Shown here: positions 1,757 to 14,046 of the stretch, one piece after another
Position numbering within the stretch: position 1 is the stretch's first letter
Layout: every line of letters begins with the position of its first letter
NCBI GenBank assembly: GCA_015063445.1
Contig: SVUD01000042.1
Span: forward strand, 1-14,046
Direction of reading: 5' to 3'
Length of the DNA: 14,046 bases
Origin: Oscillospiraceae bacterium
GTDB lineage: Bacteria; Bacillota_A; Clostridia; Oscillospirales; CAG-272
Made by a program: the position numbers and the translations under genes
Notes under the pieces: generated by a model
The model's input: only the letters and a program-made list of their open reading frames with translations
Told to the model about the DNA's origin: nothing
The model's database searches: none

Positions 1757-1834
1757 TTTTTTATTTCCGTTTCATCAGAATTAGCCTCTCGGCTTGAATG
1801 AAAATATTTTTGGAACAAGACCTTCGTCTTAATT

Positions 1835-3568
1835 TTAAACCTCTGCTATGCTCTTTGCATCGGAAGCGTAAGCCTCGATTTTCTCATCAAGAGCATTTTT
1901 GTCGTCTGCGTGCGCAAGGAGATAAATCTTTATCTTAGGCTCTGTTCCCGAAGGACGAACGACTATCTTGTCTCCGTTTTCAAGAACGTAATAAAGCACG
2001 TCCGAAGGCTGAAGTCCCGTGGGCTCAACCGTTCCGTCATAGACATTCTTTATTTCACCCGCCTTGTAATCACGAGCCTCGATAACCTTTATTCCGCCAA
2101 ACTGCTCGGGTATACTGTCACGCAAAGACTGCATAACCCTTTTACGTCTTTCTATACCGTCAAGACCTTCCATATATATATCGATAGTGCGCTCTCCGTA
2201 GAAGCCGTACGTTTCGTATAGCTTGTTGAGAGCATCTATAAGAGTCATATTATTCTTCTTGTAATAAGCCGTCATTTCAAGAATAAGCATAGATGCCTCG
2301 ACAGCATCCTTATCTCTTGCGTAAGAACCGAGAAGATATCCGTAGCTTTCCTCAAAACCGAGAAGAAAGGCGTCATCCTCTGCCTTAGCCTCATATTCCT
2401 TGATAACCTCGCCTATAAACTTGAAGCCCGTATAGACGTCGTACAGCTTAACACCCTGAACCTCCGCAATCTTATACGCCATATCGGTTGAAACTATGCT
2501 CTTGACCGCAAAAGCGTTTTCTTTTAGAGTACCGAGCGCTCTCTTCTGTCCTATAACGTAATCAAGCAAAAGCGCGCCCATCTGATTGCCCGTAATGGTT
2601 TTAAACTCCCCGTCCTCGGCTCTTGCCATAACACCTACTCTATCCGAATCGGGATCGGTTGCGATTACGATATCCGAGCCAACCTCATTGGCAATTTTGA
2701 TACCGTCGGTAAATACGTTCGCGTATTCGGGATTTGGCTTTTCTACAGTCGGGAAATCTCCGTCGGGAGTCATCTGAGATTCAACTGTATAAAGATTCTT
2801 AAGTCCCATCCTTAAAAACACCTCGGGAACGAGCTTATATCCCGCTCCGTGAAGAGGAGTATATACTACCTTAAGATCCTCTGCTTCCTTAACGAGATCG
2901 GCATTTATAGCCGTATTCATAACCGCCTTGATATAATGCTCGTCAAAGCTCTCGTCAAGAACCGTGATAATGCCGCTCGCTACTCCCTCGTCATAAAAGT
3001 CTGCGCCCTTCATATCAAGAACGTCAAACTTCTCACGCTCCGCTGAAACTATTTTAGCCTGATCGGGATTAATCTGGGCTCCGTCCTCCCAATAAGCCTT
3101 ATATCCGTTATATTCCTTGGGATTATGCGACGCCGTGATGTTGATGCCCGCAAGCGCCCCGAAATGTCTTACGGCATACGAAAGCTCGGGAGTGGGTCTG
3201 AGGCTATCGAAGATATATACCTTTATTCCCTCAGAAGCGAGAATAGACGCGCTTACTCTTGCGAATTCCTCAGAATGATTTCTCGAATCAAAAGCTATCG
3301 CTACGCCTCTTTTTTCACCGCCCGCTTTCTTAACGAGCGCCGCTATTCCTCTCGTCGTCTGAGCGACGGTAAAACGGTTCATACAAGCCGTTCCCATATA
3401 CATCGTAGAGCGTAAGCCCGCAGTTCCAAAATCCATAGAAGCAGAAAAACGAAGCTTTTTAGTATTATCGTCCGCGACTATCGCGAAAAGCTCATCCTTT
3501 TCTTCATCCGTCATGTCTTTGCAAAGCAACCATTTCTGATATTCGTAATTGTAAGTGCTATAGTTCAT
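1835..3568 (-). CDS. pgcA: Alpha-phosphoglucomutase / phosphomannomutase (PgcA type)
   Basis: Cytoplasmic enzyme that interconverts glucose-1-phosphate and glucose-6-phosphate, feeding UDP-glucose, cell-envelope and glycogen metabolism. All four landmarks of the alpha-D-phosphohexomutase family are present in the 577 residues: the phosphoserine loop TASHNP at 145-150 (active Ser147), the magnesium loop DPDSDR at 305-310, the sugar-recognition loop GFEESYG at 404-410, and the phosphate-binding loop RPSGTEPK at 538-545. Length matches the roughly 580-residue B. subtilis PgcA-like branch rather than the 450-residue GlmM branch. The start ATG at 3566-3568 has GGAGG at 3573-3577, four bases away, which fixes it. 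It lies 54 bases after the TSCPD gene and 78 bases before lepA on the same strand, with no strong promoter seen between, so co-transcription is likely. Sugar specificity (glucose versus mannose) cannot be settled by eye. Confidence 0.95.
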   Translation of the reverse strand: MNYSTYNYEYQKWLLCKDMTDEEKDELFAIVADDNTKKLRFSASMDFGTAGLRSTMYMGTACMNRFTVAQTTRGIAALVKKAGGEKRGVAIAFDSRNHSEEFARVSASILASEGIKVYIFDSLRPTPELSYAVRHFGALAGINITASHNPKEYNGYKAYWEDGAQINPDQAKIVSAEREKFDVLDMKGADFYDEGVASGIITVLDESFDEHYIKAVMNTAINADLVKEAEDLKVVYTPLHGAGYKLVPEVFLRMGLKNLYTVESQMTPDGDFPTVEKPNPEYANVFTDGIKIANEVGSDIVIATDPDSDRVGVMARAEDGEFKTITGNQMGALLLDYVIGQKRALGTLKENAFAVKSIVSTDMAYKIAEVQGVKLYDVYTGFKFIGEVIKEYEAKAEDDAFLLGFEESYGYLLGSYARDKDAVEASMLILEMTAYYKKNNMTLIDALNKLYETYGFYGERTIDIYMEGLDGIERRKRVMQSLRDSIPEQFGGIKVIEARDYKAGEIKNVYDGTVEPTGLQPSDVLYYVLENGDKIVVRPSGTEPKIKIYLLAHADDKNALDEKIEAYASDAKSIAEV

Positions 3569-3622
3569 AAAACCTCCAAATATTTACCTTACCGGTTCTC
3601 GTTTTTATTACAAAAAATCACT

Positions 3623-3883
3623 TTAAGACGCGCCTTCCAGCGCTTCCTCGATCGCTTTTGCAAGCTGATCGGGGCACGAGGTGGATTTAAAACCGCATTT
3701 TATGCCCTTTAGCTTAGAGACAACCTCATCGGTCTTCATTCCCTTTACCAATGATGCTATTCCCGCCGTATTTCCCGCGCAACCGCCAACAAATGCGCAA
3801 TCCGTAATAATTCCGTCCTCTATATCAAGAATAATCATTCTTGAGCAGGTTCCTCTCGTTTTGTATTCTATGTGTTTTTTCAT
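3623..3883 (-). CDS. TSCPD-domain small protein (TIGR03905-like)
   Basis: An 86-residue protein with a C-terminal STSCPDQLA motif (around residues 68-76) and conserved cysteines upstream (RGTCSR, GGCAGN, IKCGF). This cysteine pattern resembles the TSCPD domain found at the C-terminus of vitamin-B12-dependent ribonucleotide reductases and in a family of stand-alone Clostridia proteins. Metal binding through the cysteines is a reasonable inference, but the role of the stand-alone form is unknown to me. The start ATG at 3881-3883 is preceded by AGAGGT, which contains the TAG stop of the upstream gene (nine bases between the two genes), suggesting translational coupling. It has no signal peptide or membrane segment, so it is expected in the cytoplasm. 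Confidence 0.85.
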   Translation of the reverse strand: MKKHIEYKTRGTCSRMIILDIEDGIITDCAFVGGCAGNTAGIASLVKGMKTDEVVSKLKGIKCGFKSTSCPDQLAKAIEEALEGAS

Positions 3884-3892
3884 ACCGTACCT

Positions 3893-4843
3893 CTATTCTA
3901 TATTTTTGTATATTCCAAAAGGAACGTATTCGTCGACAAAAAGAGAAAGATATATGAAAAGATCGGTAAATGATTCTCCACCGTCCTTGAATACAATAGA
4001 ATAAAGAGTTCTACCATTATCTTCTCCCAGGAATGACGTTCCTATCCTATAGACGTCTACACCGAAAATCTCGGCAGCCGATAAAAGCTCAGTAAGACGC
4101 ATAGAGCTTTTTGGAATAACCATTTCAAAATATCTATCCGTTGCCTCATCTCTGTCCGGAATCCTGAAATCTCTGCTTATCAGAGCATATTTCATATCCG
4201 CGTTTCCCTCAAAGCCAAACACGGGCGTTATAGCAAGTATTTTGAGGTCAAGGTCGGATACCAGCTTTTCGATTGATGGGATTCTGACAGACTGTTTTTC
4301 TTCAAACGGCAGTATGCAATATCCGTATCTTTTATCAGCCACGCTGACGCACGCTTCCTTAAAGCTTTCCGCATATGCTACTCTCGGATCGAGAAACTCC
4401 TGCGAAAAAACATCAAACGCCTCGTCAGCAAGAGCGCTTTTCACGTATACGAATGTTTCATTCTGGAAGGACTCGGGCAAAAACGCGCCCTCGTTTATTT
4501 CAACACCGTTTAACCAAAGCTTTTCACGGAGCAACGATGAAAAATTAGCCTTATCCGAGGCTGTAAGCGTTCTTAAAAACGATTTGACTCCGTTTACGGT
4601 CTCATTTATCACGTCAACGCTCGGCTCGTATTCATCAAAGCATACCTCTTCTTTTAAGAGAGCCAACGCCTCGAAAACGGTCATCTCCTCTTCGATAAGC
4701 GATCTTATCTGACGGGAAATGCTTTCCGCCATAAAGCTTATTTCACAAAGGCGAAGCTCAAAACTTCTGCCCTCCTCTTTTGCGATAGAGCCGAGATTTG
4801 AAATCGAAACGTTATTTATATCAAAAACACCGTATTTTTCCAT
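3893..4843 (-). CDS. Divergent prephenate-dehydratase-like protein with ACT-like C-terminus
   Basis: A 316-residue soluble protein. Residues about 154-205 follow the pattern of a prephenate dehydratase substrate-binding lobe: YAESFKEAC, then YGYCILPFEE, then a helix and DLDLKILAI. Residues about 235-316 look like an ACT regulatory domain (MVIPKSSMRLTELLSAAEIF, then a strand with Y-R-I-G and YSIVFKD). The catalytic Thr-Arg-Phe expected between them appears as Met-Lys-Tyr at about 217-219 (ADMKYALIS), so dehydratase activity is doubtful. The N-terminal 110 residues are mostly helical and could be a chorismate-mutase-like or novel module; I cannot tell which. The start ATG at 4841-4843 has GGAGGG at 4850-4855. 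It is the first gene of the leftward run, directly behind its promoter. A ligand sensor or regulator is as plausible as an enzyme. The family call is by eye only. Confidence 0.5.
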   Translation of the reverse strand: MEKYGVFDINNVSISNLGSIAKEEGRSFELRLCEISFMAESISRQIRSLIEEEMTVFEALALLKEEVCFDEYEPSVDVINETVNGVKSFLRTLTASDKANFSSLLREKLWLNGVEINEGAFLPESFQNETFVYVKSALADEAFDVFSQEFLDPRVAYAESFKEACVSVADKRYGYCILPFEEKQSVRIPSIEKLVSDLDLKILAITPVFGFEGNADMKYALISRDFRIPDRDEATDRYFEMVIPKSSMRLTELLSAAEIFGVDVYRIGTSFLGEDNGRTLYSIVFKDGGESFTDLFIYLSLFVDEYVPFGIYKNIE

Positions 4844-4875
4844 ATCTTGCCCTCCGTTCGCAAATTTACTTATAA

Positions 4876-4904
4876 AGTATACAATATATTTTTAAAAATT
4901 ACAA
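4876..4904 (-). promoter_or_regulatory. Sigma-A promoter for the leftward run
   Basis: Read leftward, the -35 is TTGTAA (plus-strand 4899-4904) and the -10 is TATACT (4876-4881), with exactly 17 bases between. The predicted start falls near 4869, about 25 bases before the start codon at 4843, with GGAGGG in between. It drives the prephenate-dehydratase-like gene and probably the three genes after it. Confidence 0.75.
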
Positions 4905-4943
4905 TATGGTTTTCACATTTTTTTGTTTTTTTTGAAAAAGATA

Positions 4944-4972
4944 TTGATTTTTCGTTTTCGGTATGGTATAAT
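4944..4972 (+). promoter_or_regulatory. Sigma-A promoter for tRNA-Leu
   Basis: The -35 TTGATT (4944-4949) and -10 TATAAT (4967-4972) are separated by 17 bases. The predicted start is near 4979, about 11 bases before the mature tRNA 5' end at 4990. It stands back to back with the leftward promoter at 4876-4904. Confidence 0.85.
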
Positions 4973-4989
4973 CTACTCTGTGCTAAGAA

Positions 4990-5076
4990 GCCGGTGTGGT
5001 GGAATTGGCAGACGCCCGGGACTCAAAATCCCGTGTTCGCAAGGACGTGCGGGTTCGACCCCCGCCACCGGCACCA
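4990..5076 (+). tRNA. tRNA-Leu (anticodon CAA)
   Basis: An 87-base class II tRNA with CCA encoded. The acceptor arm GCCGGTG (4990-4996) pairs with CACCGGC (5066-5072), followed by discriminator A and CCA. The anticodon stem CGGGA/TCCCG encloses the loop CTCAAAA, giving anticodon CAA, which reads UUG. The long variable arm (TGTTCGCAAGGACGT region) is diagnostic of leucine or serine tRNAs, and with this anticodon means leucine. The T arm is GCGGG, TTCGACC, CCCGC. It is flanked by its own promoter and terminator and is therefore a monocistronic unit. Confidence 0.97.
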
Positions 5077-5079
5077 GAT

Positions 5080-5112
5080 AAAGCCATTCGCATTGAGCGG
5101 GTGGCTTTTTTT
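5080..5112 (+). terminator. Intrinsic terminator after tRNA-Leu
   Basis: The arms 5080-5091 (AAAGCCATTCGC) and 5097-5108 (GCGGGTGGCTTT) pair over 12 positions with two G-T wobbles around a five-base loop ATTGA, and run into T's to 5112. It begins four bases after the tRNA CCA end, so it ends the tRNA transcript. The transporter gene begins 54 bases later. Confidence 0.85.
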
Positions 5113-5166
5113 ACGAAATACGGACTTAAAATAAAGCATCAACTTATATTTCACGGAGTTTTTGCA

Positions 5167-6348
5167 ATGACTAAAGCTAAAAAAACAGCAGTTATAGGTT
5201 TCCTCTGTGTACTCACGTACGTCGTGACTTACTACTTAAGAAACATGCTGAGCGTTTTTGCGCCTGAGCTTCTTTTCGGTGGCGTATTCAACGAAAGCGG
5301 AATAGCCCTGCTTTCCTCAACCTATATGGTGTTTTATGCCATAGGACAGCTGCTGAACGGATTCTTAGGTGACGTCTTAGCTCCAAAAAAATTGATTTTT
5401 ACGGGAATTTTCACTGCCGGCGTATCGATTATATTATTCCCTCTTATTCAAATCAGTGCGGTTGAGGTTATTCTTTTTGCCCTTCTCGGCTTCGGTCTTT
5501 CCATGGTTCGAGGTCCACTGATGAAAATAATAACCGAAAACACAGATACAGACGGAGCAAGAAAAATATGCGTATTCTTCTCGTCCGCCTCATTTGCCGG
5601 TCCTATGATAGCGGGAATATTCGCATCATTGTTTGATTTTGTGCCCGCATTCATTGCCGCAGGTTCTTTCGCCATCATCGCCGTTTCGTTTTCTTTTGGC
5701 TTTATCTTTCATCTTGAAAAAAAGAAGGAAATAACGTACAGGCATAGCGAAAAATTTAATCTTTCCTCTTTGCTCGAGGTTTTCAAAATTGAAAAATTCT
5801 TTTTCTACCTCGTTATAGCGTGTCTTGTTGAAATAGGAACCGCATCTATCTCGTTCTGGATTCCCACCTATCTCAGTATACATCTCGGCTTTGGAACCGA
5901 TGCCTCAAATACAATATTCACACTCATTTCCGTATTCCGAGCGTGTATGCCATTCGTCGCTCTCGCAATCTTTAACGCTACGGGCCAAAAGGATATTGGA
6001 ATGATGCGAATCGCATTCTCAGTATCCGCAATTTTATTTATATCAGACATTTTCATCACAAACAAAATTCTCAACATCGCAGTACTGATTTTAGCACTTA
6101 TGTCGATAAGCTGCTGCTCGTCTCTTCTATGGAGCATTTACATTCCGAGTCTCGGAAAAACGGGCAGAGTTTCAAGCGTAAATGGGGTTATAGACTGCAC
6201 GGGATATATAGCCGCTGCAGCCGCAAATCTCGTGTTTGGAAATCTCGTTACATATATCGGCTGGAGCGGTCTTCTCGCACTTTGGTCATTGATAGGCATT
6301 ATAGGCGTATTTACAACTCTATTCGCAACAAAAAGCAAAAAACAATAA
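5167..6348 (+). CDS. MFS transporter, organophosphate/phosphate-antiporter-like
   Basis: A 393-residue integral membrane protein with about twelve hydrophobic segments and a basic cytoplasmic loop near residues 183-200 between the two halves. The MFS motif A appears as GFLGDVLAPKK at 65-75, between the second and third segments. The N-terminal pattern (YYLRNMLSVFAPELL, then GQLLNGFLGD) recalls the GlpT/UhpT/UhpC group, so a phosphorylated or small polar solute is a guess; the substrate is not readable from sequence. The open frame extends back through the tRNA to 4996, but the true start is ATG 5167, with GGAG at 5155-5158 eight bases upstream and the expected short N-terminus before the first membrane segment. 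I see no convincing dedicated promoter between the tRNA terminator and this gene. It is followed 22 bases later by a second MFS gene, probably on the same transcript. Confidence 0.85.
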   Translation: MTKAKKTAVIGFLCVLTYVVTYYLRNMLSVFAPELLFGGVFNESGIALLSSTYMVFYAIGQLLNGFLGDVLAPKKLIFTGIFTAGVSIILFPLIQISAVEVILFALLGFGLSMVRGPLMKIITENTDTDGARKICVFFSSASFAGPMIAGIFASLFDFVPAFIAAGSFAIIAVSFSFGFIFHLEKKKEITYRHSEKFNLSSLLEVFKIEKFFFYLVIACLVEIGTASISFWIPTYLSIHLGFGTDASNTIFTLISVFRACMPFVALAIFNATGQKDIGMMRIAFSVSAILFISDIFITNKILNIAVLILALMSISCCSSLLWSIYIPSLGKTGRVSSVNGVIDCTGYIAAAAANLVFGNLVTYIGWSGLLALWSLIGIIGVFTTLFATKSKKQ

Positions 6349-6370
6349 TTATTTTAAAGCAGAAATCGTA

Positions 6371-7624
6371 ATGAAAACTCAATTTACCTACAAGCACACC
6401 GTATTTGCCGCATATATTTCGTATATAGTTCAGGCAATAGTAAACACTATTTCTCCGCTGCTTTTCGTCGTGTACTCGGAAAGGCTCGGACTCTCTCTTT
6501 TACAGATAAGCATACTTATAACCTTCAATTTCGTTATACAGCTCTCAGTAGACCTCGGAAGCGCATTTTTCGTCGCGAGGCTCGGTTACAGACGCTGTGT
6601 GGTTCTTGCCGAAGTTATGGCGACGCTCGGACTCTGTCTCATGCCTCTTCTAACGTCAGTTATGCTGTCGAAATTCGCAGCCCTCCTCATTTCAAGCATC
6701 GTTATGTGCTCGGGCGGTGGACTTATAGAGGTTATCGTCAGCCCCATTGTTGAAGCCATTCCCGGTGACAAAAAAGCATCGGATATGAGCATTCTTCACT
6801 CCTTCTACTGCTGGGGACAGGTTATAGTCGTTCTGATTACTACGCTCTATCTCACCATTTTCGGCTTGGAAAGCTGGCTCTTCCTTCCCCTCATATTCGC
6901 CGTATTCCCCATAATTGCCGGCGTTATGTTTTTACTTGTTCCCATAAACGAGCTTGATGCCGACACGGAGCACCGGGGATTCAAGCACCTTATACGCCAA
7001 AACGGATTTTTCACGATGGTGGTGATAATGGTTGCCGCGGGGGCGTCTGAGGTTGCGATAGCCCAATGGGCTTCTCTCTTCGCCGAGAAGGGACTCGGTA
7101 TTTCAAAATCTCTCGGCGATCTGCTCGGCCCTTGCGCCTTTGCAGTGGCTATGGGGCTTTCAAGAGTAATATTTGGAAAATACGCTGCAAGGATAAGGCT
7201 CGAAAAATGGATTACGGCATCATTTGCGCTCTGTGTTCTTGCGTATCTTATTACTGTCTTTTCGACAATTCCCGTCCTCTCCTTCATCGGATTCGCGCTT
7301 TGCGGAATCTCGGTTGCTATTCTATGGCCCGGAACGTACAGTCTCGGCGCTGAATTTATTCCGACAGGAGGAACGCTTATGTTTGCCATTTTCGCCTTTT
7401 TCGGCGACCTTGGCTGCACGCTCGGTCCCGATCTTATAGGTATCGTTTCAAACGGCGTTATCGAAAACGGAAGCTTCCTTACCTCGCTTATTCAAGGCGA
7501 CGCCACTGCGGTCGCATTAAAGTGCGGTATACTCTTAGCTATCATTTTCCCTATCTCAGGTCTTATCGCCGCGCTTATCCTTTTGAACAAAATGAAAAAA
7601 AGCCGTAAGCGCGCAGAAATTTGA
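6371..7624 (+). CDS. MFS transporter, sugar-type (FucP-like resemblance)
   Basis: A 417-residue membrane protein with about twelve hydrophobic segments. A degenerate motif A is seen as DLGSAFFVARLGYRR at 61-75, and the second half opens with GASEVAIAQWASLFAEKGLG at about residues 223-242, a pattern I associate with FucP-like sugar porters. It is a different MFS branch from its neighbour, so the pair is not a recent duplication. It starts 22 bases after the upstream gene; the ribosome site is poor (no clean GGAGG before ATG 6371), which suggests dependence on translation from upstream. The next membrane segment begins about ten residues in, so this ATG is the natural start. A terminator follows at 7631. 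The substrate is unknown; the proximity to a glycan operon allows, but does not show, sugar uptake. Confidence 0.85.
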   Translation: MKTQFTYKHTVFAAYISYIVQAIVNTISPLLFVVYSERLGLSLLQISILITFNFVIQLSVDLGSAFFVARLGYRRCVVLAEVMATLGLCLMPLLTSVMLSKFAALLISSIVMCSGGGLIEVIVSPIVEAIPGDKKASDMSILHSFYCWGQVIVVLITTLYLTIFGLESWLFLPLIFAVFPIIAGVMFLLVPINELDADTEHRGFKHLIRQNGFFTMVVIMVAAGASEVAIAQWASLFAEKGLGISKSLGDLLGPCAFAVAMGLSRVIFGKYAARIRLEKWITASFALCVLAYLITVFSTIPVLSFIGFALCGISVAILWPGTYSLGAEFIPTGGTLMFAIFAFFGDLGCTLGPDLIGIVSNGVIENGSFLTSLIQGDATAVALKCGILLAIIFPISGLIAALILLNKMKKSRKRAEI

Positions 7625-7630
7625 ATATAC

Positions 7631-7670
7631 AACGGACTTAAGCCTTATCGCTGAGTCCGTTTTGTTTTTT
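7631..7670 (+). terminator. Intrinsic terminator after the MFS pair
   Basis: AACGGACT (7631-7638) pairs perfectly with AGTCCGTT (7654-7661); an inner AGC/GCT pairing can extend it. It is followed by TTG and a run of six T's. It sits seven bases after the second MFS stop codon and separates the transporters from the glycan operon. Confidence 0.85.
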
Positions 7671-7758
7671 GCACACTGTTATTATTTTATTGCTTTGTTT
7701 TTTGTTTTTTTACTAAATCGAGGCTTTAGTTGCCAAAATCGTATCAACGAGTAAATTA

Positions 7759-7788
7759 TTGACGCATACACAAAAAGTGTGATATAAT
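7759..7788 (+). promoter_or_regulatory. Upstream promoter P1 of the glycan operon
   Basis: The -35 TTGACG (7759-7764) and -10 TATAAT (7783-7788) are 18 bases apart. The spacer carries a small dyad, ACAC-AAAAA-GTGT (7768-7780), which could bind a regulator but is short enough to be chance. The resulting leader to the GH20 start would be about 140 bases. The stretch 7671-7758 before it holds only A/T-rich sequence with no gene or structure I can support. Confidence 0.65.
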
Positions 7789-7850
7789 TCGTTTAGCAAT
7801 TATTTTTATGGTTCTATAGCTTTATTTTAAACTTTTATTTCATAAATTAA

Positions 7851-7879
7851 TTGACAAATTCAAAAAAGACTTGTATAAT
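7851..7879 (+). promoter_or_regulatory. Main promoter P2 of the glycan operon (consensus)
   Basis: TTGACA (7851-7856), a 17-base spacer and TATAAT (7874-7879) form a perfect sigma-A consensus. The transcription start would be near 7886, about 48 bases before the GH20 start codon. A promoter this strong normally needs a repressor to be regulated, which gives meaning to the dyad that follows it. Confidence 0.85.
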
Positions 7880-7880
7880 G

Positions 7881-7914
7881 TACGTAAGCGCGTTATTTTG
7901 CGCAGGTACACGTA
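7881..7914 (+). promoter_or_regulatory. Dyad over the P2 start site, possible operator
   Basis: TACGT (7881-7885) and GCGC (7888-7891) are mirrored by GCGC (7900-7903) and ACGTA (7910-7914), with unequal gaps between the paired parts (two versus six bases). It overlaps the predicted start of P2, where a repressor could block transcription; as RNA only the GCGC stem would form. No regulator gene is present in the window. This is a suggestion from symmetry only. Confidence 0.3.
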
Positions 7915-7933
7915 TACTTTTAGGAGGAAGAAA

Positions 7934-9526
7934 ATGGCAAAGCATAAATTCAACAAATTCGGCGTTATGATCGACATGTCACGCAATTCGGTTATGAATT
8001 TAGATTCTCTTAAGGAATTTATACGCCTTATCAAAAAAATAGGGTATAACTGCGTTCTTCTTTACACAGAGGATACCTACGAAATTGACGATCCTTATTT
8101 CGGCTACTTACGAGGCCGTTACTCTAAAGAGGAGATGAAGGAAATTGACGCCTTTGCGGAATCAATAGGCGTTGAAATGATTCCCTGCATACAGACTCTC
8201 GCTCATCTTAATGCGTTTAAAAGGTGGCAAAGAACCCCATACGATTGCGAAGATATCATTCTCACAGATGACGACAGGACCTATGAGTTTATCGACAAAA
8301 TGCTCGCTTCAACCTCCGAATGCTTCAAATCAAGACGCATACATATAGGTATGGACGAGGCGCATATGCTCGGTCGCGGAAAGCACCTTGACGTTCAAGG
8401 CTACGAGAACGCTATCTCAATTATGCAAAGACATCTTTCACGCGTAATCGAGCTTGCTAAAAAATATGACTACTCACCTATGATGTGGTCGGATATGTTC
8501 TTCCGTTCATGGAATAACGGAGCGTATACAATACCGAAGCAAAAGCTTCCCGAAAATGTTATAAACGCATTTAATAAAGACGTTACTCCTGTTTATTGGG
8601 ACTACTACAGAACCAATAAAGAGGTTTACAGCGATATGCTTTACAACCACAAGCAGCTTTCGGATGAAACGTGGTTTGCGGGCGGTGTTTGGGGCTGGGG
8701 CGGTCTCGTTCCCTTCAATGAGCTTTCAATGAAAAATATGTTTCCCGCTATTGATGCCTGCCGCGAACATAAGGTCAAGAACGTATTTATGACGCTTTGG
8801 GGCGATAACGGCGGCGAATGCTCTCATTTTGCAGAAATTCCCGGTCTTTTCAAGATAATAGAATACGCAAAAGGCAATACCGACGATGAGGAAAGCAACA
8901 AAAAATTCAAGAGAATATTCGGGCTTGATTTTGATGACTTCCTTGCTATCGATTTGCCCAACCAAATTGCGGATGAAAAGAAAATAGTCAACCCCTCAAA
9001 ATATATGCTTTTCTCTGATCCATTTGCGGGATTCCTTGACTGCACTGTAAAAAAAGGTGTCGGCAAGAAATTCGAGGAGTATGAAAAAACGCTCACCGAT
9101 ATCGCAAACAAGAGCAGACGCTTTGGCTATATATTCAAGGCAGAGGCAAAGCTTTGCTCTGTTCTCAGCGTTAAATACGAGCTTGGAGTAAAAACGAGAG
9201 AGGCTTACAAGGCTCATGATACCGAAGCTCTTCGTTCTCTTCTTAACGATTATTCCGAGGCTATAAAACGCACTAAGGAATTTTACAAAGCATTCTCTTA
9301 TATGTGGCATAAGGATTTCAAGCCTCATGGCTTTGCGGTTCAGGATATGCGCATAGGAGGTCTTATACAGAGACTTGAAGGATGCAAAAAAAGACTTTCC
9401 GATTATATTGACGGAAGACTCTCTAAAATTGATGAGCTTGAAGAGGTTATTCTTCCCTTCAAGAGTGAGGGCGAGCCTATATATTTCAACAATGCGCTGA
9501 ATTCGGCATCTGTAAACGTAAATTGA
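7934..9526 (+). CDS. GH20-type exo-beta-N-acetylhexosaminidase, cytoplasmic
   Basis: A 530-residue enzyme expected to remove terminal beta-linked GlcNAc or GalNAc by substrate-assisted catalysis. The GH20 catalytic Asp-Glu pair is seen in HIGMDEAHMLG (137-147; D141, E142). Further barrel landmarks are WSDMF (185-189), the aromatic GVWGWGG (251-257) and TLWGDNGGE (287-295). It starts directly in the catalytic barrel, lacking the usual N-terminal GH20b domain, like the shorter GH20C-type enzymes of streptococci, and carries a helical C-terminal region of about 150 residues. There is no signal peptide, so it acts inside the cell. The start is ATG 7934 with AGGAGG at 7922-7927; the longer reading frame from a TTG at 7871 overlaps the promoter and is rejected. 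It is first in a three-gene operon with two lyases. GlcNAc versus GalNAc preference is not readable. Confidence 0.85.
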   Translation: MAKHKFNKFGVMIDMSRNSVMNLDSLKEFIRLIKKIGYNCVLLYTEDTYEIDDPYFGYLRGRYSKEEMKEIDAFAESIGVEMIPCIQTLAHLNAFKRWQRTPYDCEDIILTDDDRTYEFIDKMLASTSECFKSRRIHIGMDEAHMLGRGKHLDVQGYENAISIMQRHLSRVIELAKKYDYSPMMWSDMFFRSWNNGAYTIPKQKLPENVINAFNKDVTPVYWDYYRTNKEVYSDMLYNHKQLSDETWFAGGVWGWGGLVPFNELSMKNMFPAIDACREHKVKNVFMTLWGDNGGECSHFAEIPGLFKIIEYAKGNTDDEESNKKFKRIFGLDFDDFLAIDLPNQIADEKKIVNPSKYMLFSDPFAGFLDCTVKKGVGKKFEEYEKTLTDIANKSRRFGYIFKAEAKLCSVLSVKYELGVKTREAYKAHDTEALRSLLNDYSEAIKRTKEFYKAFSYMWHKDFKPHGFAVQDMRIGGLIQRLEGCKKRLSDYIDGRLSKIDELEEVILPFKSEGEPIYFNNALNSASVNVN

Positions 9527-9577
9527 TATCATTTAAAAGCAAAAACAATTTGCAAATTCACAAAGAGGTACATTACT

Positions 9578-11263
9578 ATGAATTTACTTGGTAAGGGTAA
9601 CGACCCTAAATTCTGGTCGGAAACCGTAAGAAACAGGGAAAGCTTCAATGCTTACAGAGAATTTCTTCTCGAAAAATGGAACGATATTTGCGTAAACGAT
9701 AATTTTGATGCGCTCAAATATACGGAATTCCGTCTTTACGGACTCACGGGTAATCGAACAGTATTCCAGGCACCCTATTATAAGCACAGAGTGCAGATGG
9801 AGGTTGCTGCGGTTCTTGCGCTCATCTATCCCGAGGAGGAAAAATATCTTGAATACGCTATGGATAAGGTGTTTGCCGTATGTAACGAATACTCCTGGTC
9901 CATTCCCGCGCATATTCCGAGATCTATAGAGGTGGTTAACAGAACTCACCTTGATCTCTTTGCGTGCGAGACGGCTTACACGCTTTCTGAGATTTATACG
10001 CTTCTTGAGGACAGACTTGATACTCTTATCAAAGAGCGCATCAAGGCTGAGATAAAATGGAGAGTTATAGACTCCTTCAGAAAAACTACTACGTGGGGCT
10101 GGGCGACCACGAATACAGCTAACTGGGCAGCCGTTTGCGCAGGCTCGGTAGGTTGTACTCTTATGCTTCTTTTCCCCGAGCTCTTTGACGAATTCAAGCC
10201 CCGTCTTGATCTTCCTATGGAAAACTTCCTTTCGGGATACGAGGAGGACGGCTTCTGCGCCGAGGGAACACACTATTGGCACTACGGCTTCGGCTTCTTC
10301 TGCGCTTACGCAGAGATGCTCCGCACCTTCACGGGAGGCAAGGAGGACTATTTCAAGCGTCCTAAGGTACACGCAATAGCAACATTCATTCAGAAAATGT
10401 TCCTTTCTGGAAAGAAGAGCGTAAGCTTCTCTGACGGTGCTGAAACGCTTGAATACCATATCGGACTTCTTCACTTTTTAAAGAATGAATACTCCGACGT
10501 GGTCGTTTATTCTCCCAAATACTCTTACATACTTGATGCATGCGGAAGATTTAACTGGCTTGTTCGCGGCGCTACGTGGTTTGACGAGGAAATATACAAT
10601 AATCCTGCCGAGGATAACGCTTCAAGCGAATACTATGGACAGGATACTCAATGGCTCATTAAGAGAACCTCGGCTTACGGCTTTGCCGCTAAGGCGGGAC
10701 ACAATAACGAGCCGCACAACCAAAATGACGTCGGCGCTTTCATAATAGCAAAGAATGAAAAGCAGATAGTTACCGACCTCGGCCCCGGGGTATATTCTCA
10801 GCAATACTTCCACAAGGACACAAGATATAGCTTTATTGAATGCTCGTCTCTCGGACACTCGGTTCCCTTCTTCGGCGAAACCATACAGAAGTTCGGCGGT
10901 GAATTTGCTTCTACCGACACTAAGTTTGAGAATGGTGTATTTTCAACCGATATTGCCGGCGCATACGGCAGCGAGGAAGTTAAGAGCATCAAGAGAAGCT
11001 TCTCGTTTACCGAGACCTCTATAACGCTTAACGATAAATTCGTATACACCGGAAGCGAAAAGATTACCGACAGAATTTCTCTTCACGAAAAACCCGCCTT
11101 TAACGGCGATAATATCGTAGCCGGAGAGCTTACGATAAAATATAACAAGGCGGCTTGTGAGGTGGTATTCAACGAGCAGCAGACCTCAAAGAATACGACT
11201 GTTTACTTTATAGACTTTGTTCTTCGTGACGGAGTTGACGAAATTACAATAATCTTTGAATAA
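9578..11263 (+). CDS. Heparinase II/III-like polysaccharide lyase, copy A (altered metal motif)
   Basis: A 561-residue protein of the heparinase II/III superfamily: an N-terminal alpha/alpha toroid (about 1-340) followed by a beta-sandwich domain. The toroid shows NWAAV (182-186) and EGTHYWHYGFGF (229-240), the tyrosine region expected to supply the catalytic base or acid. The sandwich shows HNQND (380-384), TDLGPG (399-404) and SSLGHSVP (423-430). Family members usually have HNHND; here the second His is Gln382, which would remove one of the three structural zinc ligands (the other two would be D400 and H427). An Asn before NW is also lost (Ala181; Asn in copy B). No signal peptide, hence cytoplasmic. 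Its start has AAGAGG at 9563-9568, nine bases upstream. It lies 51 bases after the GH20 gene and 33 before copy B, with which it aligns without major gaps and shares roughly half its residues by eye. Substrate is inferred to be uronic-acid-containing. Confidence 0.85.
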   Translation: MNLLGKGNDPKFWSETVRNRESFNAYREFLLEKWNDICVNDNFDALKYTEFRLYGLTGNRTVFQAPYYKHRVQMEVAAVLALIYPEEEKYLEYAMDKVFAVCNEYSWSIPAHIPRSIEVVNRTHLDLFACETAYTLSEIYTLLEDRLDTLIKERIKAEIKWRVIDSFRKTTTWGWATTNTANWAAVCAGSVGCTLMLLFPELFDEFKPRLDLPMENFLSGYEEDGFCAEGTHYWHYGFGFFCAYAEMLRTFTGGKEDYFKRPKVHAIATFIQKMFLSGKKSVSFSDGAETLEYHIGLLHFLKNEYSDVVVYSPKYSYILDACGRFNWLVRGATWFDEEIYNNPAEDNASSEYYGQDTQWLIKRTSAYGFAAKAGHNNEPHNQNDVGAFIIAKNEKQIVTDLGPGVYSQQYFHKDTRYSFIECSSLGHSVPFFGETIQKFGGEFASTDTKFENGVFSTDIAGAYGSEEVKSIKRSFSFTETSITLNDKFVYTGSEKITDRISLHEKPAFNGDNIVAGELTIKYNKAACEVVFNEQQTSKNTTVYFIDFVLRDGVDEITIIFE

Positions 11264-11296
11264 AATTCCTGCTTTTGTAGGTAATAAGGAGTGCTT

Positions 11297-12979
11297 ATGA
11301 ATTTAATAGGAAAAGCTCACGACCCGAAATTCTGGAGTGAGGTCGTAAGAAACGATATACACTATAAAAACTATCTCGACGAGAGACTCGCCGATTGGGA
11401 CAAATACTGTGAGGGCAAGGTTATAACCGAGCTTAAATACAGCGATTTCAAGAAATTCTTCACCACAGGAAACAGAAGCGTTTACGAAAGCCAATACTTT
11501 AAGCGCAGAGGTATGCTCGTTACGTCCGCAATACTCTCTCTCATTTATCCTGAGGAAGAAAAATACATCGATTACCTCAACGACGTGATATTTGCTATAT
11601 GCGATGAATACACCTGGAGTGTTCCGGCTCATCACCCCAAGCTTGAGGTATACGACAAGACCTTTATCGACCTTTTTGCCTCCGAAACCGGCTTCTCCCT
11701 TGCGGAGATATACACTCTTCTCGGTGACAGACTCGATAAAATAGTACGTGACCGAATTAAGATTGAAATTCAATCGAGAATTATCGACTCATTTATGAGC
11801 GACAGATACTTCTGGTGGGCGGAAAGATGCACGAATAACTGGGCTGCCGTTTGCTCGGGCTCTGTTGGATGCACGTTTATGCTTATGCGCCCCGATCTAT
11901 TCCCCGAGGTTAAGGGAAGAATAGGTGAAATTATGGAAAGATTTCTTTCCGGCTTCGAGAGTGACGGATACTGCCTCGAGGGTACAGGATATTGGCACTA
12001 CGGCTTTGGCTTCTTTGTTACTTATGCGGATATGCTCAAAGCCTTCACCGAGGGTGCGGACGATTACTTCAAGCGTGATAAGGTAAGAGTTATCGCAACT
12101 TTCTTGCAAAAGATGTTCCTTTCGGGTACGTCCGCTGTCTCATTCGCTGACGGTGGAGACCAGCTCAAGTATCATATCGGACTTCTTCACTATCTTAAAA
12201 ACTTGTATCCCGATGACGTTAAGGTTTACTCTCCGGAATATTCTTATATGAGAGATAACTGCCACCGTACGTGTCTTTCGATCCGCGCGGCATCATGGCT
12301 CTCACCTGAAATTTACGATAATCCCGAAAGTGTTGCGTCCGAGGCAGAATACTACGCAGAGGAATCTAAGTGGTACGTAAGAAGAACAAAAAATTACGGC
12401 TTTGCGGCTAAAGGCGGAAACAACGGGGAGCATCATAACCATAACGACGTTGGAACGTTTATCTTTGCAAAGGACGGAAAGCAGCTTATAACCGATATGG
12501 GACGAGGCGCTTATACGAAGCAGTACTTCAGAAATGAGACGAGATACGAATTTATCGAATGCTCCTCTCTCGGTCACTGCGTTCCCTATTTTGATGGTGA
12601 CAAAATTCAGAAAATGGGCTCGGACTTCCGCGCTGATGATTACACATACCGTGAAGGATATCTCGCATTCGATATGGCAAAGGCATACGGTGACGAGGCG
12701 GTAAGAAGTGTAAAGCGTGAATTCAGAACCTATAGCGACTACGTAACCGTTACTGATACGTTTGACTGCGACTGTGCGATAACCGATAGAATTGTTTCGG
12801 TCATAAAGCCCGAAATTTTCGACGGCACTGTAAAAATTGAGTCCGCAGAGATAACCTTTGATAAGGACGCTTGTGCAGTTTCCGTAAGCGAAGAGGTAAC
12901 AAGCAAGAAGTTCACGGTTTATCTTATCGACTTCAAGCTTAACGACGGTGTTAAGAGCTTTGAGATGAAGCTTAAATAA
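11297..12979 (+). CDS. Heparinase II/III-like polysaccharide lyase, copy B (canonical motifs)
   Basis: A 560-residue paralogue of copy A with the intact family motifs: CTNNWAAV (178-185), EGTGYWHYGFGFF (228-240), HNHNDVGTF (380-388), TDMGRG (399-404) and SSLGHCVP (423-430). By analogy with heparinase II and related alginate lyases, H382, D400 and H427 would hold the structural zinc and H380 with a tyrosine near 232-235 would take part in beta-elimination; those assignments come from family knowledge and alignment by eye. It is expected to cleave uronic-acid-containing oligosaccharides in the cytoplasm (no signal peptide). The open frame begins two codons earlier with a GTG at 11291 that is part of the AAGGAG ribosome site (11286-11291); the true start is ATG 11297, which also matches the copy A N-terminus (MNLLGK/MNLIGK). 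It is the last gene of the operon, followed by a terminator. Confidence 0.87.
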   Translation: MNLIGKAHDPKFWSEVVRNDIHYKNYLDERLADWDKYCEGKVITELKYSDFKKFFTTGNRSVYESQYFKRRGMLVTSAILSLIYPEEEKYIDYLNDVIFAICDEYTWSVPAHHPKLEVYDKTFIDLFASETGFSLAEIYTLLGDRLDKIVRDRIKIEIQSRIIDSFMSDRYFWWAERCTNNWAAVCSGSVGCTFMLMRPDLFPEVKGRIGEIMERFLSGFESDGYCLEGTGYWHYGFGFFVTYADMLKAFTEGADDYFKRDKVRVIATFLQKMFLSGTSAVSFADGGDQLKYHIGLLHYLKNLYPDDVKVYSPEYSYMRDNCHRTCLSIRAASWLSPEIYDNPESVASEAEYYAEESKWYVRRTKNYGFAAKGGNNGEHHNHNDVGTFIFAKDGKQLITDMGRGAYTKQYFRNETRYEFIECSSLGHCVPYFDGDKIQKMGSDFRADDYTYREGYLAFDMAKAYGDEAVRSVKREFRTYSDYVTVTDTFDCDCAITDRIVSVIKPEIFDGTVKIESAEITFDKDACAVSVSEEVTSKKFTVYLIDFKLNDGVKSFEMKLK

Positions 12980-12991
12980 TTTCCGTAATCA

Positions 12992-13005
12992 CTACTAAAT
13001 AGTAG
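12992..13005. repeat. Short perfect palindrome after the lyase operon
   Basis: CTACTA (12992-12997), two A's, then TAGTAG (13000-13005), 12 bases past the copy B stop codon. It could be an RNA hairpin with a tight loop or a protein site; no function can be assigned. Confidence 0.4.
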
Positions 13006-13015
13006 AAATTAAATA

Positions 13016-13064
13016 AACAGGGCAAGAGTAAAATGATTTTTGTGCGCTTGCTCTGTTCTTTTTT
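13016..13064 (+). terminator. Intrinsic terminator of the glycan operon
   Basis: AACAGGGCAAG (13016-13026) pairs with CTTGCTCTGTT (13047-13057) over 11 positions with one G-T wobble, around a 20-base loop, followed by a C and a run of six T's. It is correctly placed 36 bases after the last lyase. Confidence 0.8.
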
Positions 13065-13072
13065 GCATCAAC

Positions 13073-13127
13073 AAACAAAGGCTATGAAGAAGCGTTTTCG
13101 CTTGATCTTCATAGCCTTTGTTTTTTT
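13073..13127. terminator. Long hairpin, probable two-way terminator
   Basis: A perfect 17-base-pair stem, AAACAAAGGCTATGAAG (13073-13089) with its complement at 13107-13123, contains an inner AAGCG-TTTT-CGCTT hairpin (13090-13103) and three unpaired bases. T's follow to 13127 on the plus strand, and the minus-strand exit is also T-rich. It lies between the rightward lyase operon and the leftward peptide and surface-protein genes, where a converging-transcript terminator is expected. The stem is much longer than termination needs, so it may also be a repeated palindromic unit. Confidence 0.65.
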
Positions 13128-13132
13128 ATTAC

Positions 13133-13225
13133 CCTACGAGGTCGGATTGACCTCGTAGGATTTCATCCGCCCTTGTCGGATTTCATCTCTTTTAAGAGAT
13201 TTATCCCACCGTAGGTGGATTTCAT
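13133..13225. repeat. Array of four different hairpins joined by a constant 7-base spacer
   Basis: Four inverted repeats of unrelated sequence follow each other: 13133-13159 (CCTACGAGGTC / GACCTCGTAGG, 11 bp stem, 5-base loop), 13167-13179 (CCG / CGG with imperfect interior), 13187-13198 (CTCTT / AAGAG) and 13206-13218 (CCACC / GGTGG). Each is followed by a seven-base spacer: ATTTCAT at 13160-13166, 13180-13186 and 13219-13225, and the variant ATTTATC at 13199-13205. Only the spacer is conserved; each stem has different sequence but preserved pairing. It is not a CRISPR, since the repeats are too short and the variable parts are self-complementary. I have an unverified impression that ATTTCAT-spaced hairpin arrays occur elsewhere in Clostridia; function unknown. 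Confidence 0.75.
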
Positions 13226-13237
13226 TGCATAAATTTG

Positions 13238-13309
13238 TCAATTTACGCCCGTGCCCATTTCCCAGATTCCGTCAGATTCCTCGTACCAAGGAGTTTCGGT
13301 GCCGGGTGA
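13238..13309 (-). pseudogene. 3' remnant of a second copy of the small-peptide gene
   Basis: Read leftward, 13259-13309 encodes SPGTETPWYEESDGIWE, identical in 17 of 17 residues to the same stretch of the intact peptide at 13427-13561, then ends EMGTGVN and TGA at 13238-13240 rather than EFSINP. The DNA differs at seven positions in six codons, all synonymous. The 5' part is missing: upstream in frame the sequence is unrelated and no ribosome site precedes any start. A GTG at 13313-13315 or TTG at 13388-13390 would keep a short frame open, so a chimeric small protein cannot be excluded. It is most simply the broken tail of a duplicated gene. Confidence 0.6.
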
Positions 13310-13409
13310 GCGCACAAAAAACGGTTGATAAGCGTTTTTTGAAGCGAAGTCCCACGTACGCGAGTTGGCGAAGGGCTTTACGCCCGACAATCAACGACAC
13401 GGGAGTGGT
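13307..13409. other. 103-base segment between direct CCGGG repeats
   Basis: The segment is bounded by CCGGG at 13302-13306 and again at 13410-13414. Beyond the right repeat, 13410-13426 resembles the bases that follow CCGGG in the intact peptide gene (GGAGGTTGTTATA against GGGAGGTAGTTATAA), so the segment looks inserted within a former second peptide gene. Inside are two small hairpins: AAAAAACG / CGTTTTTT (13316-13340) and GGGC / GCCC (13373-13385). No terminal inverted repeats and no coding capacity are apparent, so its origin is unknown. Confidence 0.35.
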
Positions 13410-13426
13410 CCGGGGAGGTTGTTATA

Positions 13427-13561
13427 TTATGGATTGATGCTGAATTCCCAGATTCCGTCACTTTCTTCATACCAAGGAGTTTCAGTTCCGGGGGAGGTAG
13501 TTATAACGTCATTAGCTTCAAGTTCTACAACCTCAACTTCGGGGTTTATATATTTTTTCAT
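13427..13561 (-). CDS. Small peptide of 44 residues behind a surface-type protein
   Basis: A complete short gene. The ATG at 13559-13561 is preceded by a full AAGGAGGT (plus-strand 13570-13577), and the frame ends with TAA at 13427-13429. The product begins MKKYINPEVEVVELEANDV and ends in a Pro/Trp/acidic tail containing PGTETPWYEESDGIW. It has no cysteine, no signal peptide and no membrane segment, and is strongly acidic. The KKY-x-x-P-E-x-E-V-x-E-L opening recalls short unannotated peptides I have seen in gut Clostridia, but this is from memory and no function is known to me. The ribosome site overlaps the TAA stop of the upstream gene (14 bases between the genes), so translation is probably coupled. 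A second copy of its 3' part lies downstream with only synonymous changes, which argues that the peptide has been under selection. Confidence 0.7.
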   Translation of the reverse strand: MKKYINPEVEVVELEANDVITTSPGTETPWYEESDGIWEFSINP

Positions 13562-13575
13562 TAATATTTACCTCC

Positions 13576-14046
13576 TTATTGGCTTACTACGGAATTTCTG
13601 TAATCGGCTGCAGACTCGGTATATTTAACGAACGCCTTAACAATTGCTTCGTATTCTGTTCCGACAGCGCCCTTGATGAAGTCTGAGATGTGGTAGCTTC
13701 CGCCGTCACCGTAAGTAATGGTTTCACACAGCGCGTATGCGTATACGTCAAGCTCAACGTACGTTCCGTTTGCGTCCGTACCCGTTACCGTATCGAGCTT
13801 TTTGCCGTTTGCATAGAACTCAATATTAGTATCGGTTACATAGAAGCGGATAGATGGCTTTGCATCGAGGTTAAGAGTTACTGCAGTTATGGGAGCAACC
13901 GTATTGGTTACACCGCTTGACACGGGTGCCGCGTTATAATCGCCGATGATGGAGTCAATAAGAGTATTTACTCTTGCTATTTCTTCTGCGGTATTGAACT
14001 CGGTGAAATAGTTGTAAGCGGCTTTAACGTACGCGAGAACGTCCTT
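13576..14046 (-). CDS. C-terminal part of a probable extracellular protein (runs off the window)
   Basis: The reverse-strand frame stays open from the right edge (KDVLAYVKAAYNYF...) to TAA at 13576-13578, giving 156 residues. The GTG at 13921-13923 is internal, not a start. The first 60 residues are helical (AEEIARVNTLIDSIIGDYN); the middle reads as beta strands with many Thr, Asn, Asp and Gly (DAKPSIRFYVTDTNIEFYAN, DTVTGTDANGTYVELDVYAY); the end is helical (YEAIVKAFVKYTESAADYRN). This mix is typical of repeat-rich secreted or cell-wall proteins of Clostridia. No sorting motif is seen at the C-terminus; it ends SVVSQ. There is no catalytic motif to name. It is transcribed toward the peptide gene and the hairpin array. 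Localisation is inferred from composition only, since the N-terminus is outside. Confidence 0.65.
   Translation of the reverse strand, partial: KDVLAYVKAAYNYFTEFNTAEEIARVNTLIDSIIGDYNAAPVSSGVTNTVAPITAVTLNLDAKPSIRFYVTDTNIEFYANGKKLDTVTGTDANGTYVELDVYAYALCETITYGDGGSYHISDFIKGAVGTEYEAIVKAFVKYTESAADYRNSVVSQ

Follow-up and report, generated by a model that had tools for sequence, protein, structure and literature searches.

A Gut-1-type minihairpin half-comb beside a terminator in an Oscillospiraceae genome, probably a truncated copy from a family of mobile elements

Introduction

What kind of sequence keeps the pairing of its hairpins and the short word between them, and lets the stems themselves vary? 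The question is raised by positions 13133-13225 of a 14,046-nucleotide contig of an Oscillospiraceae bacterium (the whole of which is called the window below), where a first-pass annotation had described four consecutive inverted repeats, each followed by a 7-base spacer. Four explanations had been offered there, namely a templated hairpin-generating mechanism, a recombination site array, a protein-binding ladder, and an RNA structure at the end of the leftward transcript.

Here, we follow the array into related loci and genomes. We consider it likely that it is a half-comb of the RTGAAAT class, which corresponds to Gut-1 of Rfam, and that it represents a truncated or non-autonomous copy from a mobile-element family of gut Clostridia, with a four-helix-bundle protein (FHB) as the inferred helper. 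The recombination-type or mobile array and the protein-binding ladder are the earlier explanations that fit best, while related copies do not suggest an RNA structure of the leftward transcript. What had been missed at that stage are the Gut-1 match, the insertion of related combs into terminators, the existence of a second, mirror-image half and the gene that accompanies combs.

The array and its surroundings

The features of the window that are needed in the following are listed here.

11291-12979, plus strand: heparinase II/III-like gene, syntenic with contig C11 of the genome G016 (66% identity)
13016-13065, plus strand: first terminator-like hairpin, behind the heparinase-like gene (from sequence)
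13067-13129, plus strand: intrinsic-terminator-like hairpin with T-run, behind the rightward operon; arms 13067-13090 and 13106-13129, 92% complementary
13133-13159, no strand: hairpin closing the half-comb, 27 nt, 11 bp, loop GGATT
13160-13166, minus strand: linker 4, ATGAAAT on minus, ATTTCAT on plus
13167-13179, no strand: comb hairpin unit 2, imperfect, CCGCCCTTGTCGG; minus strand CCGACAAGGGCGG
13180-13186, minus strand: linker 3, ATGAAAT on minus, ATTTCAT on plus
13187-13198, no strand: comb hairpin CTCTTTTAAGAG (from sequence and single-stranded DNA fold)
13199-13205, minus strand: linker 2, a variant, GATAAAT on minus, ATTTATC on plus
13206-13218, no strand: comb hairpin CCACCGTAGGTGG, CCACC-GTA-GGTGG, with a C(GNA)G triloop on the ATTTCAT strand
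13219-13225, minus strand: linker 1, ATGAAAT on minus; the class-A linker RTGAAAT of FHB-linked combs
13155-13227, minus strand: match to Rfam Gut-1 (RF01706), model positions 1-77 of 77, 38.0 bits
13238-13310, minus strand: partial duplicate of the end of the small-peptide gene (83%), stop codon at 13240-13238
13427-13561, minus strand: small-peptide gene, leftward, MKKYINPEVEVVELEANDVITTSPGTETPWYEESDGIWEFSINP (from sequence)

The coordinates and letters given earlier for the four inverted repeats and their spacers are exact, and the description needs amending only for unit 2, whose stem is imperfect with an internal mismatch. Hairpin units are joined by a constant, class-specific 7-nt linker word, and the unit at 13206-13218 has the loop C(GTA)G when read on the ATTTCAT strand of the window. 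All linkers at 13133-13225 have one orientation, i.e. the mirror-image second half-comb described below is absent there. Neither a recognised terminal inverted repeat nor a target-site duplication was seen for the array.

Folded as single-stranded DNA, either strand of the array gives exactly the four hairpins listed, with energies of -22.2 and -23.7 kcal/mol. None of 200 dinucleotide shuffles folds equally well, the z values being -6.83 and -6.91 for the whole array, with the share of the long first hairpin included. A generic comb score, which is determined de novo from any 7-mer, in either orientation, that flanks hairpins, is only 2 for the region 13081-13300; 19 of 300 shuffles of that region also reach it, as do 4 of 60 slices of 220 nt from window positions 1-13200, the last of which overlaps the array. 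The array is therefore significant as a structure and as a Gut-1 match, but not by the generic word search. A mere run of palindromes could account for the 19 shuffles in 300, but not for the absence of equally good folds, the Gut-1 E value (1.7e-4) or the recurrence of linker and plan in the genome G016, and we consider it extremely unlikely.

It is also important to consider the position of the array between two genes. On one side, the comb begins 3 nt past the right arm of the terminator-like hairpin 13067-13129 and is thus located at a terminator hairpin. On the other side, it starts 12 nt past the leftward stop codon at 13240-13238. The latter position, together with the strong fold, is what would be expected if the array were simply the 3'-end structure of a leftward transcript, a terminator or mRNA stabiliser with no history as an element. 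However, no T-run follows the last hairpin on the minus strand, and the linker, the number of units and one of the units are common to dispersed half-combs of G016, so that this explanation appears very unlikely.

The leftward small peptide (MKKYINPEVEV...TPWYEESDGIWEFSINP) has related stretches that are multi-copy in the genomes G016, G420 and G436, and one of those in G016 (contig C32) sits near a Gut-1 half-comb. Between the two small-peptide gene ends, window positions 13302-13398 match short dispersed repeats (80-97% over 35-65 nt), of which 13302-13366 has counterparts in 11 of 69 congeneric genomes and 13361-13398 has them in 3, as counted among the matches listed; another repeat family seems to be inserted there. 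A DNA search with positions 12900-14046 in 69 genomes of the genus of G016 gave matches in 22, all of them short dispersed pieces.

Gut-1 and its distribution

The Gut-1 match has an E value of 1.7e-4 for the whole window against 4227 families, and of 3.8e-6 for 321 bases. It extends over the full model, and its 38 bits fall below the gathering score of 50. Three hairpins and RUGAAAU linkers, the hallmarks of the family, are present in the window, with one linker changed to GATAAAT and one stem imperfect. According to the accessible part of its description (PMC2864571), Gut-1 is known from environmental sequences only and consists of three hairpins with aUGAAAU or gUGAAAU linkers. This corresponds to the left half of a class-A comb as defined below, and the window matches it as a whole. 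The difference is that the combs found here are repeated many times per genome, can have a second half in mirror image and a partner gene, include sister classes with other linkers, and are in some cases inserted into terminators.

A genome search for further arrays of this design, as proposed in the first-pass annotation, returned many in gut Clostridia. Scanning of genome contigs for three ATGAAAT words 10-20 nt apart gave at least 117 stretches; among those listed, palindromic units are by inspection present in most from gut Clostridia MAGs and not in most from other phyla. When hairpins were required between the words, 62 chains in 49 loci remained, a count that takes in loci from the other genome searches described here and may contain the same place more than once. 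In 26 comb-bearing genomes, chosen from the loci of the ATGAAAT scan, Gut-1 matches are found in every case, at least 3 to 46 per genome (lower bounds, with up to 119 candidates scored per genome), and 25 of the 26 exceed the cut-off. When 196 genomes were sampled evenly across the class, 36 had a match, which exceeds the cut-off in 23, and of 14 control genomes only E. coli gave a signal, below the cut-off. Gut-1 is a dispersed multi-copy repeat. In three of the genomes (G008, G013 and G002), many matches are only a few hundred bases away from the end of a contig, as though assembly tended to stop at these repeats.

Half-combs in the closest relative found

The closest of the 196 class genomes searched is G016 (Oscillospiraceae MAG SIG656, the genome of locus L037), with a LepA that is 92% identical to that of the window. 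It contains at least 27 Gut-1 matches. A half-comb core of 72 nt is present in 8 copies with 0-2 mismatches, and their flanks diverge within about 60 nt; the copies derive from nine hits, L037 and L136 being the same place, and two of them stand in tandem in L134. These half-combs share the plan of the window, i.e. three short hairpins plus a longer closing one, with four linkers, and those inspected have a single linker orientation, as in the window. One unit is even the same but for one base, perfect in G016 (CCGACAAGGTCGG) and CCGACAAGGGCGG on the minus strand of the window. The half-combs of L133-L139 lie in or beside another repeat, TACCTCATCCACC...CCCCTTCCCCAAGGGGAAGGC.

At the site syntenic to the window, on contig C11 of G016, the heparinase genes are followed by a terminator of similar form, and no comb is present. 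Since a different gene comes next, this site does not serve as a clean empty counterpart of the window. The half-combs and this comb-free site together indicate that the window copy is most likely a class-A half-comb beside the terminator 13067-13129, either non-autonomous or decayed.

Anatomy of the combs

L031, L109, L033, L017 and L047 each contain a second array that mirrors the first, and L016 has one array only. The full order consists of RTGAAAT-joined hairpins, a centre, and then ATTTCAY-joined hairpins, with a terminator-like hairpin adjoining. The central hairpins of L065 (26 nt) and L164 (25 nt) are comparable to the 27-nt closing hairpin of the window, and the GATAAAT variant of its linker occurs also in the FHB-linked combs L158 and L010.

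The earlier observation that linker and pairing are kept and stems vary holds for the related loci. Over all collected loci, 213 of the 407 distinct intervals between neighbouring ATTTCAY words form hairpins, compared to a mean of 53.6 and a maximum of 71 upon shuffling. In 257 units, preselected for pairing, a unit's own halves pair at 0.80 and swapped halves at 0.37.

The loops are strongly biased with respect to the strand. On the ATTTCAY strand, the triloops of class-A intervals are GNA in 63 of 117 cases and the reverse complement, TNC, in 3 (binomial p 1e-15 for the loop bias), and a C-G pair closes 163 of 213 loops. In the all-class FHB set, read on the gene strand, TTC, TAC and TGC are the commonest loops of the left half and GAA, GTA and AAA those of the right half. 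The strand with GNA loops is thus the bottom one in the left half and the top one in the right half. Minihairpins of DNA with GNA or GNNA loops and at least two G-C pairs are described as extraordinarily stable in the available text of PMC4686876.

At this point an RNA reading has to be weighed, namely that Gut-1 is a small noncoding RNA with hairpins and single-stranded AUGAAAU linkers, perhaps acting as a sponge for an RNA-binding protein. Rfam lists RF01706 as type sRNA, and Weinberg et al. 2010, in the part of the paper accessible to us, place it among probable noncoding RNAs (PMC2864571). Mispairs on the ATTTCAY strand of class A are G-T in 17 cases and A-C in 4, as if one strand folds, and the window array folds strongly also as RNA (z -6.74 and -6.83). 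The best RNA structure, however, retains the long hairpin and fuses the other three units, which does not give the four-hairpin comb. In addition, the switch of the GNA-loop strand between the halves means that no single transcript holds both in that form, FHB-linked combs precede the -35 box of the gene, mostly behind a hairpin, and some comb copies sit inside terminators. We judge the small RNA to be quite unlikely.

It should be noted that neither mispairs nor folding energies decide this issue. In the all-class set there are 10 GT/TG and 10 AC/CA mispairs, and all hairpins are recovered by DNA parameters in 93 and by RNA parameters in 86 of 113 cases (99 and 95 for the other strand). Since the base-pair bias differs between the sets and the folding parameters do not discriminate, what supports the DNA reading is the mirror-image arrangement, the prevalence of GNA triloops and the insertion events. 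That combs act as DNA structure rather than RNA is likely, although not proven.

Similar hairpins of 26-28 nt, with tips of the TTAAGGA, CTAAGGA or GTAAGGA type, adjoin combs of different classes and genomes in L287, L140, L294, L175 and L176.

The partner gene

Among ORF families of at least 70 aa located within 1 kb of combs, only one is found in three or more loci. This is FHB, present in 7 loci and corresponding to Pfam PF05635 (23S_rRNA_IVP, the 23S intervening-sequence protein). PF05635 occurs in 25 of the 26 comb genomes, with 81 hits, of which 70 were retrieved (30 loci and 40 stretches), and in none of the 14 controls. In the class-wide draw it is found in 30 of 36 genomes with Gut-1 versus 34 of 160 without (Fisher p 4e-12). 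Among the matches listed, at least 10 Gut-1 matches precede a PF05635 hit of the same strand by 139-273 nt; these are on contigs C36 of G002, C87 of G007, C44 of G012, C6 and C16 of G013, C49 of G015, C41 of G018, C122 of G021, C108 of G024 and C8 of G025. G016 has two PF05635 hits among the matches listed, and at one of these loci, L164, ATGAAAT/TTGAAAT combs are present on both sides. In the window, PF05635 is absent among the ten proteins scanned, and a search with an FHB profile over the collected loci and the window gave no window row among the matches listed.

The association was quantified with the generic comb score, in an FHB set that also takes in loci from the ATGAAAT scan and the class-wide PF05635 search. 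A score of at least 3 is reached by 71 of 105 FHB upstreams (L010 and L210 entering as two pieces each), 10 of 100 FHB downstreams and 18 of 110 upstreams of other ORFs, the latter drawn from 135 in comb-chosen loci plus L129. The difference between FHB and control upstreams has a Fisher p of 1.5e-14, with six of the 71 positive rows resting on AT-rich or unsuited words (L240, L159, L195, L174, L247 and L196) and the controls not cleaned likewise. None of 16 low-scoring FHBs (L220-L235) and L242 reaches a score of 3, and an Rfam scan of the same 17 comb-less loci gave no rRNA. These results establish the linkage of combs to FHB genes.

The six AT-rich or unsuited rows were omitted from the position and promoter tests, as were combs with little sequence or other spacing, leaving 59 rows for the former (L010 twice) and 25 for the latter. 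The 46 nt that precede the first linker in these 59 rows have a mean folding energy of -14.6 kcal/mol, compared to -7.3 farther up. A tRNA gene is located within 300 nt of the comb in 26 of them, versus 2 of 110 control upstreams of 420 nt. Only 13 have a T-run within 14 nt, which means that not every such hairpin is a canonical terminator. Between the last linker and the FHB gene, a promoter score of at least 10 is found for 17 of the 25 testable combs, and for 2.6% upon shuffling. Taken together, the fold, tRNA and promoter results show that most FHB-linked combs have a hairpin on one side, in many cases belonging to a tRNA gene, and the promoter of FHB on the other. These combs adjoin intact hairpins and are not inside them.

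In 18 further genomes, PF05635 was found in seven, all Bacteroidota by name. Of 22 further PF05635 genes scored, six reach a comb score of 3 (L254, L255, L264, L271, L273 and L277, on the score only). We claim the comb-FHB link within Clostridia only. At L210, a stop codon interrupts the FHB gene, RCGATAT-type combs stand on both sides, and the copy is decayed. A further setting of the family, according to the accessible part of PMC3936711, is provided by 18 PF05635 genes in cas loci, with the motif GxxRxxxSxxxNxxE. We found no paper linking Gut-1 or such combs to PF05635 in a literature search that excluded most subscription journals and bioRxiv preprints.

Linker classes and FHB clades

Combs with other linkers are present before other FHB genes among the 30 upstream loci listed, and the consensus linkers sort into nine hand-made classes, which were assigned before tree building (L183 and L186 are borderline, and L196 was kept as class D). 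On an FHB tree of 85 rows, 62 of them classed and 23 with no assigned comb class, the ten labels, including none, need 15 changes. The mean for shuffled labels is 56.1, and 0 of 200 shuffles are as low, a contrast that is inflated by near-copies and comes from a tree with few columns. The classed rows alone need 11 changes. Linker class and FHB clade change together, a pattern that physical linkage alone could give.

Two further observations were made on the tree. L158 groups with class C and has a class-A linker, and by eye the N-terminal half of its protein resembles class A and the C-terminal half class C; if this reflects more than linkage, the N-terminal half would be the part that reads the linker. 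A deep clade (L173, L218, L060, L211, L214, L216, L217 and L213) has longer linkers, of the TGTATATCATCA and TGTATGGAATCA types, with a tRNA gene upstream in six of its eight members.

Insertion into terminators

We turn next to the evidence that combs move. A comb element of G008 with RTGATAT linkers (L282) recurs over at least 300 nt, with 78-91% identity, at six other places (L302, L286, L304, L281, L305 and L306), and shorter matches within G008 reach 97%. The alignments stop where the flanks start. The copy in L302 is bracketed by the terminator arms AAAAAATGCGACC and GGTCGCATTTTTT; such arms also bracket L281, L305 and L307, and shorter ones are present in L286.

An inverted repeat of at least 11 that spans the comb, together with an A- or T-run, is found for 10 of 168 combs versus 2 of 783 random placements (p 1e-6). 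Two of these are doubtful, namely L097, which probably duplicates a contig end, and the AT-rich L203; in L294 the 5' arm is duplicated, and L117 is included on its listed match. The ten include L287, which is of class A like the window, and L140, of class D in G016. The comb-only copies inside terminator hairpins measure about 350 nt.

An earlier comparison among the collected loci gave no filled/empty pair. One is provided by the intergene between aconitase and HPF. In G434 (L334, empty), this contains an intact terminator palindrome, AAAAAAGAGATGTGCCGATCGGCACATCTCTTTTTT, and in G008 (L281, filled) the same terminator is interrupted, no more than a few bases from its dyad, by an insert of 352 nt with a double comb. 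The distance from the stop codon to HPF is 499 in G008, 82 in G434 and 98 in G419, where a different intact terminator and no comb are found. The flanking genes are 90% and 89% (G434) and 96% and 86% (G419) identical to those of G008. Out of 29 congeneric aconitase loci (L333-L361), HPF is next in L333 and L334 only, and the others, with other neighbours or none in reach, are uninformative. The L281 element carries ATAAAGCAGGT at one end and its inverted counterpart at the other, and its target is itself a palindrome, which hides any target-site duplication. The comparison demonstrates insertion of a comb.

The PPIase locus, with a comb in G008 (L282) and none in G419 and G434, was considered as another such pair and rejected, the left neighbour being different. 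For the class-A site L287, identity to the relative in G016 is only 58%, and the terminator there is a different one, with a short palindrome in its loop that resembles the end of the element. Downstream of a DUF1648-like gene in G016 (L363), a terminator loop contains ACCTGCTTTACAGTAGGT, similar to the end of the comb element, CCTGCTTTATGGTAGG; it is possible that this loop is the footprint of a lost element. At the left junctions of L164, L065 and L188, the pre-comb hairpin takes the last codons of the host gene as its 5' arm, and its 3' arm matches this locus-specific sequence in each of the three genomes, as if copied at insertion.

A regulatory scenario can be evaluated at this stage, in which combs are binding sites of an FHB regulator or nucleoid-type protein and the comb-only copies are its regulon and do not move. 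The co-variation of FHB and linker and the position of combs against the FHB promoter agree with it, as does the homology of FHB to its nearest solved structure, 2RLD (E 5e-23, five chains), and to Xanthomonas S23p, a relative that forms a toroidal homopentamer as described in the available text of PMC4990558. However, near-identical copies with unrelated flanks, similar inverted ends and an orthologous empty site require movement. Regulation instead of mobility is accordingly unlikely, and both may hold.

Possible mechanism and relation to known systems

On the basis of these results, we propose that FHB, an S23/IVP homologue with pentameric relatives, binds the single-stranded linkers or the minihairpins of its own class, and a pentamer would engage many linkers or hairpins of one comb at once. 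FHB may thereby help comb DNA to move into hairpin tips that are exposed as single strands or cruciforms. We know of no nuclease among four-helix-bundle FHB proteins. As no other gene family recurred beside the combs examined, host enzymes are probably involved, with nucleases and repair that probably cut and join the comb DNA. The window copy, which has neither the gene nor the second half, would then be a relic or passenger beside the terminator 13067-13129.

Several known systems resemble this proposal in part. REP/BIME sequences are dispersed palindromes with a short motif by the hairpin, a chromosomal RAYT (Y1) transposase as partner and repeat-only intergenic copies. Combs share the dispersed palindromes with a short conserved motif, the chromosomal protein partner and the repeat-only copies, but have FHB as partner, and it is the linker that is constant and the stems that vary. 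Hairpins are also the targets of group IIC introns and IS1397-like elements, which go to terminators or to the loops of palindromes; the 352-nt element of L281 differs in having no open stretch longer than 101 aa. As in CRISPR arrays, constant and variable parts alternate in tandem, but in combs the constant part is a 7-nt linker and the variable part is self-complementary.

The closest parallel in protein content is the intervening sequence (IVS) of 23S rRNA, described in the accessible parts of PMC4990558 and PMC11270868 as a suspected mobile element that is inserted in rRNA helix 45, with inverted ends and the S23p/IVP protein (PF05635). The IVS of Coxiella is 428 nt long and has two or three tandem heptamers plus a degenerate one before the ORF (PMC4990558, PMC11270868). 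Combs and IVSs thus share PF05635, insertion into a hairpin (a terminator versus rRNA helix 45), inverted ends and a similar length (352 nt in L281 versus 428 nt). The combs differ in being outside rRNA, multi-copy and mostly without the gene, and the available portions of the IVS accounts mention no hairpins or comb. In the window itself, no rRNA was found by Rfam scan; its copy is not inside 23S rRNA and has no PF05635, which the FHB-linked relatives do encode. According to the available text of PMC4990558, the function and origin of IVSs are unclear more than 25 years on, and mobility via the ORF product is one hypothesis. The accessible part of PMC11270868 describes rRNA insertion sequences that contain PF05635 and occupy several scattered sites, in keeping with a mobile role.

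A broader proposal is put forward tentatively, as a quite possible one. FHB would be the recognition and mobility protein of a type of mobile DNA built of minihairpin arrays, the 23S IVSs would be of the same kind, with the tips of rRNA helices as insertion sites in place of those of terminators, and Gut-1 would be the cis part of one class.

Implications

With nine linker classes that go with particular FHB clades, many copies consisting of a comb only, and one pair of filled and empty sites, binding, specificity and mobility can be tested directly. The repeats may also account for the frequent occurrence of such arrays close to the ends of contigs assembled from gut Clostridia. A catalogued noncoding RNA, Gut-1, would be re-read as part of a dispersed element, and the S23/IVP family would gain a cis-linked nucleic-acid partner with matched classes.
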